From Carboxylicivirga marina (GTDB lineage: Bacteria; Bacteroidota; Bacteroidia; Bacteroidales; Marinilabiliaceae), in contig NZ_JAENRR010000048.1 of the NCBI RefSeq assembly GCF_016612505.1, positions 1 through 38,023 of the forward strand: 38,023 bases of DNA, given 5' to 3'. Made by a program: the position numbers and the translations under genes. Each line of letters starts with the position of its first letter. The stretch's first letter is position 1. Of this stretch, positions 2,027-4,591 are shown in pieces. The notes under the pieces were generated by a model, which worked only from the letters and a program-made list of their open reading frames with translations, had not been told where the DNA came from and did not search any database.

Positions 2027-2596
2027 ATGAGCGATACATTTTTCGAAAGAGAAGAAAATGTGAAACAATACATCGAAATGACAGCCGACTATGACGGACG
2101 TTGGTTTTTTGAGCAATTCAAGAAATTTATACCTCGCTCCCATAAGGCTCTTGAATTGGGTATGGGGCCAGGTAAAGATCTGGATAATATTCGCCAGGAA
2201 TACGATGTGGTGGGCTCGGACTTTTCCTTTGTTTTTGCCGAACTATACAAGCGGAGTCATCCTGAGGTAAAGATTAAAGTAATTGATGCAGTAAAAATTA
2301 AGACCAAGGAATATTTCGACTGTATTTATACCAATAAAGTACTACATCATTTGACTTTTGATGATATAAAGGCTTCCATTAAACGTCAGGCTGAGGTACT
2401 GAACGATAAAGGCATAGTACTACATACATTCTGGAAAGGAACAGGACAAGAAAACTATGGTGGAATGCTGTTTCATTATTACGAAACCGAAACCGTAAAA
2501 GAGTTATTTTCAGAACTATTTAACATCATTCATATAGATACTTATCAGGAATTTAAGGAAGATGATTCGATCATTATTGTAGCACAAAAGCGATAA
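2027..2596 (+). CDS. Class I SAM-dependent methyltransferase
   Basis: The 189-residue cytoplasmic protein has the Rossmann-type methyltransferase layout. Motif I is LELGMGPGKDL near residues 43-53, which binds S-adenosylmethionine. An acidic residue follows in VVGSDFS, then DAVKI and a CIYTNKVLHHL segment that fits motif IV and the following helix of small-molecule methyltransferases. The substrate cannot be told from sequence. The gene starts 26 bases after the preceding terminator and ends 6 bases before the DksA-like gene, so the two very probably share a transcript. That pairing is the only hint of a job and does not define one. Confidence 0.8.
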   Translation: MSDTFFEREENVKQYIEMTADYDGRWFFEQFKKFIPRSHKALELGMGPGKDLDNIRQEYDVVGSDFSFVFAELYKRSHPEVKIKVIDAVKIKTKEYFDCIYTNKVLHHLTFDDIKASIKRQAEVLNDKGIVLHTFWKGTGQENYGGMLFHYYETETVKELFSELFNIIHIDTYQEFKEDDSIIIVAQKR

Positions 2597-2932: not shown

Positions 2933-3039
2933 CAAGGGAGCACAACCAGCTCATATATCAATATCCTTTCATTGGCATTGCCACAAATATTCAATAAACC
3001 TGCCGGAAATAAAAAAGGAAAAACGGTCTGGTATAACAC

Positions 3040-3316
3040 TACCAAATGGTATTGGCACTATTCTATTTTTTTCCTGATACCAAATGGTATTCGCTAGTTT
3101 TCTCCCTGGAGAGGTCAATACCAAATAGTAATAGCTTGTTTTAGTACTAAGTTTTGCTGATACAAGTTGTATCGGCACATTTTGGTCTTAAAACAAGTAG
3201 ATACAAGTTGTATCGACATATTTTAGTCCTAAAACAAACAGATACAAATTGTATCGACACATTTTAGTCCTAGAACTAACAAATACATCATGTATCGACC
3301 AGTTTTAGTAAAAAAC
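3040..3316. repeat. Degenerate 41-bp tandem array of seven units, two dyads per unit
   Basis: Seven copies of a 41-base unit lie between convergent genes. The first dyad of each unit is at 3040-3051, 3077-3090, 3118-3132, 3160-3172, 3201-3213, 3242-3254 and 3283-3295, giving periods of 38, 41, 42, 41, 41 and 41. Its sequence drifts but stays symmetric: ATACCA/TGGTAT, then ATACAA/TTGTAT, then ATACAT/ATGTAT. A second dyad sits half a unit later: TCTCC/GGAGA at 3101-3112, TTAGTACTAA at 3141-3150, TTTTGG/TTAAAA at 3180-3193, TTTTAG/CTAAAA at 3221-3234, and a decayed copy at 3262-3275. From 3118 on, dyad centres are 20.5-21 bp apart, about two helical turns. An isolated dyad, TGGCA-T-TGCCA, lies at 2973-2983. 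Function is unknown. Confidence 0.85.
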
Positions 3317-3380
3317 TATCGCTTTACATTGAAAAAATATTTTGCGTATACTAAAGCCAACTCTTTAGCGAATACAGTCA

Positions 3381-3423
3381 CAAAAAAAAATGTGAGCACC
3401 ATTCTTTAACGATACTCACATTT
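3381..3423 (-). terminator. Terminator of the chemoreceptor operon
   Basis: Perfect 9-base arms AAATGTGAG (3388-3396) and CTCACATTT (3415-3423) enclose an 18-base loop. The run of nine A at 3382-3390 is a T-run on the minus strand, so it ends transcription coming from 3476. Confidence 0.85.
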
Positions 3424-3475
3424 ACAACCTAAACCTACTAATCTATAATCCAAACTTTAAAAACCCACTTGTATA

Positions 3476-4591
3476 TTATTTTTTCTCTGTATTAAAAAAT
3501 GAAATGACTTCTCTTAACTGCTCGGCCTGTACAGCTAACTCTTCGGCACTGGTAGCCAACTCTTCGCTGGATGCTGCCGTCTGCTGAGTGACTTTATTTA
3601 ATTGTTGAATCGCATTATTTACCTGACTTGCTCCATTGTTTTGCTCGTTACTCGCCGCCGATATCTCTTGCACCAGGTTGGTGGTATTTTCAATTTTAGG
3701 TATCACCTCATCCATCACCTCTCCTGCTCCATTGGCCAGTTCAACACTGTTTTGAGCAAGTCCCACAATTTCTTCAGCTGCTTTTTTACTGTTTTCAGCC
3801 AACTTTCTTACTTCGGCTGCCACTACTGCAAACCCCCTACCGTGCTCACCGGCACGAGCTGCTTCCACCGCTGCATTTAAAGCCAAAATATTGGTCTGTG
3901 TAGATATATCATTAATAACTGTAATTTTTTCTGCTATTTCCTGTGTTGCTGCCACAGTTGCTTCTGAACTCTTTGCAACATCTTTTATGCTCTTATTGGC
4001 ATCCACAGTCACATTTTCTGTCTGTTTTGAATTCTCAGTATTTTGGCTAATATTAGCCGATATCTCCTCAATAGTCGATGATACCTCCTCCAATGAGCTA
4101 GCTTGCTCATTGGCTCCTTGCGATAATTGTTCCGAAGCACTACTAACCTGACTACTGGCCCCTACCAAATTATCGGCATTTGTTGATACTTCTCTTATAA
4201 TGCCCCTCAAATTATTTACCAGCTTGTACAATGCATTCGTTAAGATACCCAATTCATTGTCTTTATCCGATGTGTTAAGCTGGATACTCAAATCTCCTTC
4301 AGCAACTTTTTTCAGATTAACAATTGCTTGCTCAAGTGGCTTTTGAGTTCTCGCTTTAATAAGCAAATACATAGGCAAGCCAATAGCATATAATAATGGT
4401 ATTATCCAAAGAGCAGACTTCAGCCCCAATTGTCCTGCCAAAAATCCAAACCATAAACATACGAGTACATAAACGGTTACTGCAAAAAATACATTCAATA
4501 AGAATGATTTTTTAAATATCAGTTTAAAAACGAAATACACTGCCGGTAAGTTTGCCAACAGGATTAAACCAAATACCAATAATTCACTCAT
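3476..4591 (-). CDS. Methyl-accepting chemotaxis-like protein without a periplasmic sensor
   Basis: The 371-residue membrane protein would pass signals to a CheA/CheW-type complex. Three hydrophobic helices lie at about 4-24, 31-52 and 60-78, with only short loops between them. A HAMP-like linker spans about 79-131. The signalling hairpin follows, and its conserved tip runs from I226 to E266 ([19 protein letters not shown] and [16 protein letters not shown] parts). Glu/Gln-rich pairs on both arms fit methylation sites. There is no C-terminal NWETF-like pentapeptide. Most receptors have a large domain between TM1 and TM2, so any stimulus must be sensed in the membrane, at the HAMP region, or through partners. 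It lies 19 bases after a receiver gene and no cheA, cheW, cheR or cheB is in the window. Confidence 0.9.

Follow-up and report, generated by a model that had tools for sequence, protein, structure and literature searches.

Palindrome arrays on a 41-42 bp step in Carboxylicivirga marina and its relatives, many of them next to DUF6261 genes

The window, meaning the whole stretch of 38,023 nucleotides analysed here, comprises positions 1 to 38,023 of contig NZ_JAENRR010000048.1 (assembly GCF_016612505.1) of Carboxylicivirga marina. A tandem array of palindromes (dyads) lies in it between a dksA/traR-type zinc-finger gene and a gene for a methyl-accepting chemotaxis protein (MCP), and no ORF of at least 80 aa overlaps 2933-3475. 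The features of the locus are as follows.

2603-2932, + strand: dksA/traR-type zinc-finger ORF, 109 aa (Pfam PF01258), a neighbour only
3039-3295, - (polarity, with the short A/T-rich interval as terminal end): core array of seven primary dyads, spacers 27-28 nt (24 nt at the low end); chain score 18 for 2973-3316 (0/1000 shuffles)
3039-3052, no strand: dyad 1, CTACCAAATGGTAT, 14-bp class, imperfect
3053-3076, no strand: terminal short interval, 24 nt, A/T tract, found in relatives too
3077-3090, no strand: dyad 2, ATACCAAATGGTAT, 14-bp class
3118-3131, no strand: dyad 3, ATACCAAATAGTAA, 14-bp class, arms imperfect
3160-3172, no strand: dyad 4, ATACAAGTTGTAT, 13-bp class
3201-3213, no strand: dyad 5, ATACAAGTTGTAT, 13-bp class
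3242-3254, no strand: dyad 6, ATACAAATTGTAT, 13-bp class
3283-3295, no strand: dyad 7, ATACATCATGTAT, 13-bp class
3173-3282, no strand: stretch with a half-unit TTTTAG/CTAAAA element at spacer midpoints; consensus symmetric at the exact midpoint, no within-unit covariation
3388-3423, - strand: terminator-like hairpin outside the array
3476-4591, - strand: MCP (Pfam PF00015), a neighbour only

An earlier note on this DNA had described a tandem array with a 41-bp period at 2973-3316. The period is borne out by a TRF call (3159-3309) and by the starts of the seven primary dyads at 3039, 3077, 3118, 3160, 3201, 3242, and 3283. There is an array in that range, but its core is narrower, at 3039-3295. 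The dyads come in two lengths, ATACC-N4-GGTAT of 14 bp and ATACA-N3-TGTAT of 13 bp, and the reported succession of arms from ATACCA/TGGTAT through ATACAA/TTGTAT to ATACAT/ATGTAT is present in the window. The arms of the dyads at 3039 and 3118 are imperfect. Spacers of 27-28 nt set the dyad centres 41-42 bp apart, save at the low end, where the first interval has centres 38 bp apart over the A/T-rich 24-nt spacer at 3053-3076. This short interval, which the earlier note does not mention, gives the array a polar end.

Regularity was measured with a palindrome-chain score that uses no sequence pattern, was devised for this analysis, and had its thresholds set after the first data were inspected. 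The stretch 2973-3316 scores 18 versus a mean of 3.3 and a maximum of 9 in 1000 dinucleotide shuffles, none of which reaches 18. Within 438 kb of the same genome (the window plus twenty 20-kb stretches) only the window array reaches a score of 11 or more at period 41 or 42, and nothing in that sample reaches 11 at periods 29, 35, 47, or 53. An intrinsic terminator or other RNA element was considered and rejected, as one of seven array units is terminator-like (3155-3177, + strand) and folding is equal on both strands. Matches to Rfam microRNA precursors at 3113-3259 fall far below gathering scores and are probably an effect of long self-complementarity.

The window array is not a single case. 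A DNA search found a second array of this ATAC type on C132 of the same genome, along with further ones in the genus. A covariance model, R1, made from 20 of 27 unit pairs, added a third array in the same genome (C111), with matches in eight of 14 genus genomes and one in another genus of the family. After this profile search of genome and relatives, which the earlier note had proposed, the analysis drew on 17 more arrays with this geometry, taken from the genus and from one sister genus. Spacers in the 18 ATAC arrays are 28 nt (47) or 27 nt (17), plus 18 shorter ones of 24-26 nt. Centre steps are 41 bp (30) or 40 bp (9) for short dyads and 42 bp (13) or 41 bp (7) for long dyads, and centres flanking the short intervals are 37-39 bp apart. 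Nearly all of the 16 arrays inspected share the polar end, in which the last interval measures ~37-38 bp and covers an A/T tract.

The dksA link of the window array is local. In nine other genomes that carry the dksA-like gene, inspection by eye of the 520 nt behind it showed no array, and a dksA-linked element was rejected on these nine relatives. Relatives without symmetry at the same locus had been taken in advance as a sign of minisatellite drift; the array is indeed absent there, but drift does not follow since arrays elsewhere stay symmetric. The gap between the LolA and carboxyltransferase genes is a natural occupied/empty pair, with an array in G000 (the C. marina genome), G007, and G011; in G009 and G010 it keeps the same ends and measures only 217 and 167 nt. 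In G004 and G013, where LolA was also located (it was located by script in seven of 14 genomes), no array lies there. Convergent genes flank the window array as had been described, but this setting is not general; 26 array rows comprise eight convergent, 15 tandem, and three divergent contexts, a tally that rests on crude ORF calls and in which row G004:C52 missed its array.

A scan of a species collection with the ATAC pair returned 94 stretches, many being lone pairs that could have arisen by chance. Among the 94 are arrays in records of Aerococcaceae, Tannerella, and Planctomycetaceae, the last from a metagenome bin and possibly contamination. Mutual comparison of the flanks of 33 pattern-scan loci gave a few pairwise matches and spurious in-array frames, with no common neighbour. 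The Aerococcaceae arrays (L078, L084, L093, L113, L133) have up to 12 dyads of the ATACAAGTTGTAT type with steps of mostly 41-42 bp, several of them with extended palindromic flanks (TGATAC..GTATCA). The Bacilli bin Lapin-012 bin21 (L079, L083, L087, L097, L100, L110, L114, L124, L147) carries many dispersed dyad pairs of the ATACCATTGGTAT type, 41 bp apart. At L165, a locus from the same scan, the spacer itself is palindromic (taacaaactaaaatattttagtttgtta). At L081 (Myxococcales, 4147-4496) nine 42-bp units fall within a 276-codon open frame; the DNA pattern has probably picked up a coding repeat here and not the present element.

Four of the 18 ATAC arrays adjoin a gene of the Pfam family DUF6261, with the polar end facing the start codon. 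DUF6261 matches, 2-11 each, occur in 12 of 14 genus genomes, and upstream of other paralogues lie arrays that share the step but consist of quite different palindromes (TTTCCAAACGTTTGGAAA, TGTCATCATGACA, TGACTAAATAGTCA, TTTCGTCCCGGGACGAAA). A pattern-free spacing spectrum of 39 DUF6261 upstream regions from ten genomes gives a mean z of 5.1 at 41 and 4.8 at 42, and below 3 at every other tested period from 24 to 65. At 41 or 42, z is at least 3 in 22 of the 39 regions and below 3 in 17, counts that are inflated by orthologues in the set and are not of independent events. The set comprises ten of 11 genes from G000 (C176 was dropped for too little upstream DNA), all nine from G007, three of seven from G011, one of seven from G004, and all 16 non-G000 genes from the class search. 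A chain score of at least 11 occurs upstream in 16/39 versus downstream in 1/39, the downstream stretches often being shorter (127-340 nt). Two further DUF6261 sets reach a chain of at least 7 in 11/20 and 7/20 loci, against 5/20 and 4/20 at the best of six control periods, with a doubtful reading frame at two loci of the first set (L387, L389) and at least four of the second.

The association has exceptions and a wider reach. Two DUF6261 clades are mostly without arrays, and one array lies 3' of its DUF6261 gene. At L234 (G014:C9, ~2150-2350, reverse strand) a G+C-rich array of the CCCCAGCCTTCAGGCTGGGG type is 3' of DUF6261, with a downstream chain score of 21, and is followed by a gene judged by eye to be IS200-like. 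DUF6261 was found in six of 13 genomes reached via the DNA pattern versus seven of 395 in the class, under E-value limits that differ (stricter for the class); the 13 derive from 15 loci hand-chosen from the 94, of which 14 were placed, and 13 genomes were searched. By inspection, related DUF6261 genes have related dyads, linked DNA being inherited together. The proteins are acidic in 33/39 cases, with a mean net charge of -5. Scans of seven DUF6261 proteins gave no known DNA-binding family above cut-off, PADLOC, PHROGs, and NCBIfam returned only weak matches, and a profile of four sequences matched no PDB chain. No relative turned up on viral contigs, nor any plasmid or phage relative of P0001. 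An AlphaFold model from two sequences (pLDDT 50) is too poor for use and suggests only helices.

Two other palindrome types were followed through the genus. TTCC-N8-GGAA pairs occur in seven and GTCA-N3-TGAC pairs in three of 14 genomes, counts that include single matches in G004 and G008 that may be chance, and a reversed control pattern had no match in any of the 14. Each type has an array beside DUF6261 plus others without DUF6261. In G013 two related DUF6261 genes stand beside two different TTCC subtypes, both of which also occur on contigs without a DUF6261 match. The TTCC dyad type is uniform in G007 and G010 and mixed in G000 and G009. Because the TTCC and GTCA types also have both DUF6261-linked and unlinked arrays, we infer that the window array is an orphan of the ATAC specificity group, whose DUF6261 gene in this genome is the one on G000:C132.

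Genes and arrays do not coincide in every genome. G006 and G012, the genus genomes without DUF6261, have none of the three array types searched (ATAC, TTCC, GTCA), and ATAC matches are absent from four DUF6261-bearing genomes (G001, G002, G005, G013). G010 has ATAC and TTCC arrays, yet both of its DUF6261 genes fall into other clades. In G009, ATAC arrays persist and the ATAC-clade DUF6261 match is found only in a short frame (G009:C67:14871-15299, L387; 196 aa open) that has possibly decayed. Arrays without a matching clade are either orphans that outlive their gene or are read by another protein.

Arm covariation, which the earlier note had proposed to test across strains, is present in the 13-bp dyads, weaker in the 14-bp dyads, and not seen for the second dyad of the ATAC group. 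The 13-bp dyads were picked by the outer four bases on each side and the step, and in these the innermost pair, across a single base, is Watson-Crick in 46 of 72 distinct dyads versus 24.0 expected (0/1000 shuffles), the rows being related and not a count of events. Of the 50 14-bp dyads the innermost pair is complementary in three versus 19.3 expected, most central pairs are AA or TT, and the arms covary modestly (p 0.007 for pair 3 and 0.009 for pair 5). A second dyad half a unit on had also been described, with changed but matching arms. In the window it is visible, and the group consensus TTTTAGTACTAAAA is symmetric about the exact midpoint. Within units, however, its arms match no better than with partners shuffled (0.38 vs 0.45, 43 distinct spacers), and the phase profile of the ATAC group has no half-unit peak (0.71 vs ~0.55). 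Where the chain reaches at least 7, in 21 of the 39 DUF6261 regions, symmetry peaks a second time exactly half a unit on (2.15 vs ~0.6).

The innermost pair of a 13-bp dyad cannot form in a hairpin because one base separates the partners. The central pair of 14-bp dyads is rarely complementary, and therefore this argument is limited to the 13-bp class. It bears on the proposal that the arrays act as RNA hairpins, which could stabilise or terminate transcripts at their 3' ends or form structures in the 5' leader of DUF6261 mRNA. Predicted folds are strong (z about -6.5), many arrays lie at 3' ends or in leaders, and the 4-nt centre of the 14-bp dyads would suit a loop. However, the two strands of the window array fold alike (z -6.47 and -6.55), covariation in 13-bp dyads reaches the pair around the single central base, and arrays occur in all gene orientations. 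No Rfam family matches at gathering score, and the 41-42 bp step common to unrelated palindromes corresponds to a length of DNA helix but has no evident meaning for RNA. Hairpins in general are very improbable, and those suggested earlier for the dksA-like message were set aside on the equal folding of strands, the pair spanning one base, and the range of gene contexts.

Drift of a minisatellite, in which a chance palindrome is duplicated in tandem and its symmetry has no function, is hardly credible. The units of an array do share sequence, and no array was seen behind the dksA-like gene of relatives. Against this, spacers diverge while dyads and step stay, unrelated arrays keep a common step, and arms change together. 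Chance or drift was rejected on the shuffles (0/1000) and the control periods.

Coordinated change of both arms can also be followed at two unlinked GTCA loci. Spacer identity at the same locus between species is 75% (G000 C129 vs G007 C1) and 69% (G000 C126 vs G007 C37), compared to 54% and 50% between loci within a genome, 49% and 54% across locus and genome, and ~38% for unrelated background. As same-locus spacers are the most alike across species, the arrays stayed in place. At both loci the outermost dyad base differs between the genomes, being C in 17/20 arms and T in none in G000, and T in 14/20 and C in four in G007. This contrast (Fisher 1.6e-6 pooled; 0.009 and 0.0004 per locus) concerns one position in two genomes, chosen after inspection, and arms within an array are not fully independent. 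Full C-G outer pairs are found in 7/10 units of G000 and full T-A pairs in 5/10 units of G007. Parallel two-arm change at unlinked loci with spacers unexchanged is the effect that would be expected of a shared trans-acting symmetric reader, and gene conversion restricted to dyads could also lie behind it. Two-arm covariation in duplex DNA, as in a symmetric operator array, is present in the 13-bp class and at the GTCA loci.

The earlier suggestion that symmetry is selected over sequence is upheld by three lines of evidence: arm covariation, unrelated palindromes on one step beside DUF6261 paralogues, and the parallel two-arm change at unlinked loci. The same three lines, which extend beyond the window, favour its further suggestion of a putative binding array for a dimeric DNA protein. 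Symmetry, step, polar end, DUF6261 link, array-specific palindrome types, and the coordinated change at two unlinked loci are direct observations. The best explanation of these, to which we give about an even chance, is that the array would be a duplex-DNA recognition lattice read by a symmetric protein acting in trans, for which DUF6261, the linked partner, is a candidate. DUF6261 is the first candidate because its gene travels with the arrays. Counting against this reading are the mostly acidic DUF6261 proteins, the seven scanned without a DNA-binding match, the 17 of 39 upstream regions with z below 3, the mixed TTCC dyad types, the arrays of G010 and of Aerococcaceae that lack a matching DUF6261 gene, and the second dyad of the ATAC group, which does not covary.

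Under this recognition-lattice reading, each dyad would be read by a two-fold-symmetric (dimeric) protein, presumably diffusible. The 41-42 bp step corresponds to four helical turns, which would place the dimers on one face of the helix and make cooperative stacking possible. The reader may be the linked DUF6261 protein itself or a complex containing DUF6261. Arrays adjoining DUF6261 genes could then let each paralogue regulate itself, and orphan arrays, including that of the window, may be further sites of the same specificity group, in this case that of the DUF6261 gene on G000:C132. The best guess for occupancy of the orphan sites is that it would shape local DNA or transcription in intergenic space, whether by looping, as a domain border, or by blocking transcription.

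It may instead be that the same duplex sites are read by an unlinked dimeric transcription factor or nucleoid protein, with DUF6261 merely regulated by it or hitch-hiking, and that orphans persist as the reader remains. This alternative is doubtful but deserves weight, as DUF6261 proteins are mostly acidic (33/39), G010 keeps ATAC and TTCC arrays without those DUF6261 clades, and Aerococcaceae arrays occur in genomes without DUF6261 (none was found in the two array-bearing genomes searched). However, an unlinked reader leaves unexplained why DUF6261 paralogues have different palindromes and close paralogues related ones, and why the three array types are absent from G006 and G012, which have no DUF6261.

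A further alternative is mobile palindromic DNA like REP/BIME elements and their REPtrons, in which case the arrays would be non-autonomous copies that owe their spread to either a single-strand nuclease (RAYT) or DUF6261. The REPtron plan likewise combines one gene, palindromes proper to it, and dispersed copies, and the LolA-carboxyltransferase gap is occupied in G000, G007, and G011 versus empty in G009 and G010. RAYT-like genes (178-204 aa) lie within 3.5 kb of DUF6261 at L343, L344, L345, and L346 (G007:C52, G008:C114, G001:C99, and G000:C44, respectively), and the one tested, L343, is above the cut-off of NCBIfam REP_Tyr_transpos (REP-associated tyrosine transposase). For subclass 2.6 of the Bacteroidetes RAYTs, structures called 'atypical' that lack GTAG have been reported, with copies elsewhere (PMC6006769).

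Mobile DNA is nonetheless an unlikely origin. No PF01797 match was found in G013, whose TTCC arrays number at least five, while G006 and G012 have five and six PF01797 matches, yet no DUF6261 and none of the three array types. In a scan of 50 Y1 loci (49 distinct of 54 PF01797 matches) a 41/42 chain of at least 10 was found at two, both with a DUF6261 gene; at a control period, seven of the 50 score 10-17, indicating that palindrome chains on other steps occur near Y1 genes. The innermost covarying pair of 13-bp dyads is impossible in a hairpin, and GTCA spacers indicate descent in place and not copying. RAYT-driven REP as a general cause was rejected on the G013 arrays without PF01797 and on the Y1-locus lattices found only alongside DUF6261.

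To return to the recognition lattice, a bolder version is possible but tentative. DUF6261 proteins could make up a novel family that reads specific DNA sequences by no known DNA-binding fold, in which each paralogue has its own palindrome code, assembles as a one-faced filament on the four-turn lattice, and has its orphan arrays as a private binding network. If so, a single genome would naturally contain several DNA recognition codes side by side, each distinct from the others. Should the recognition lattice itself prove right, a chance-looking minisatellite would become a general genetic element with a gene family, many mutually different palindrome codes, and one four-turn step. It would also give DUF6261 a testable function, allow protein-DNA co-evolution to be measured within single genomes, and perhaps yield sets of dimeric DNA binders that do not cross-react. 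Searches of an open-access library (PMC) turned up neither these arrays nor a connection between arrays and DUF6261, a name that occurs there in one paper, on Streptococcus oralis. The arrays apparently constitute an undescribed family, many of them next to DUF6261, in which the letters vary and symmetry and four-turn spacing are kept.

Several known systems share parts of this organisation. Iteron and parS/parC-type arrays consist of helix-phased repeated sites read cooperatively by dimeric proteins, often near the gene of the reader. The present arrays differ in being palindrome arrays on chromosomal contigs with several unrelated palindromes on one step, and no match to Rep, ParB, or ParR families was found among 26 neighbour proteins scanned. 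Like CRISPR arrays, they have short palindromic repeats and spacers of near-constant length. However, their spacers are not unique but follow a group consensus and are homologous between species at the same locus, and a CRISPR array was rejected on this consensus and on the orthologous spacers.

PARCELs are likewise tandem palindromes in diverse bacteria, but are described as coding, with 75-nt repeats (PMC2996958), whereas the window array is intergenic and its type mixes 41 and 42 bp steps. A PARCEL was rejected as no ORF of at least 80 aa lies over 2933-3475 and 41-bp steps are not a multiple of three. The BrickBuilt MITE of Porphyromonas gingivalis, also in Bacteroidales, forms tandem intergenic arrays with a defined leader and tail (PMC4596501). 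Its units are 23 nt without spacers, its ends are inverted repeats, and the abstract names no linked gene or specificity groups (PMC4596501).

The nearest known organisation is that of REP/BIME elements and REPtrons, in which, as outlined for REP/RAYT systems, a gene has its own palindrome family with dispersed intergenic copies and the two co-evolve (PMC2817692; PMC6006769). BIMEs, like the arrays, have regularly spaced palindromes, in their case of alternating orientation. The linked gene differs, being DUF6261 and not a tyrosine transposase, and the arrays follow DUF6261 and not Y1 genes; across the 50 Y1 loci scanned and the G013 arrays without PF01797, no RAYT gene generally accompanies them. 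A handful of arrays was found per genome and type, whereas REPs are reported at usually over 100 per genome (PMC2817692). The strict 41-42 bp step and covariation through the centre of 13-bp dyads also set the arrays apart. By eye, no GTAG/GGAG foot is conserved beside the dyads of inspected units, although RAYT subclass 2.6 reportedly lacks the foot too (PMC6006769). Because of the results for G013, for G006 and G012, and for the Y1 loci, the arrays are not filed as a REPtron, though they may resemble one in function, as dispersed palindromes that belong to a gene.
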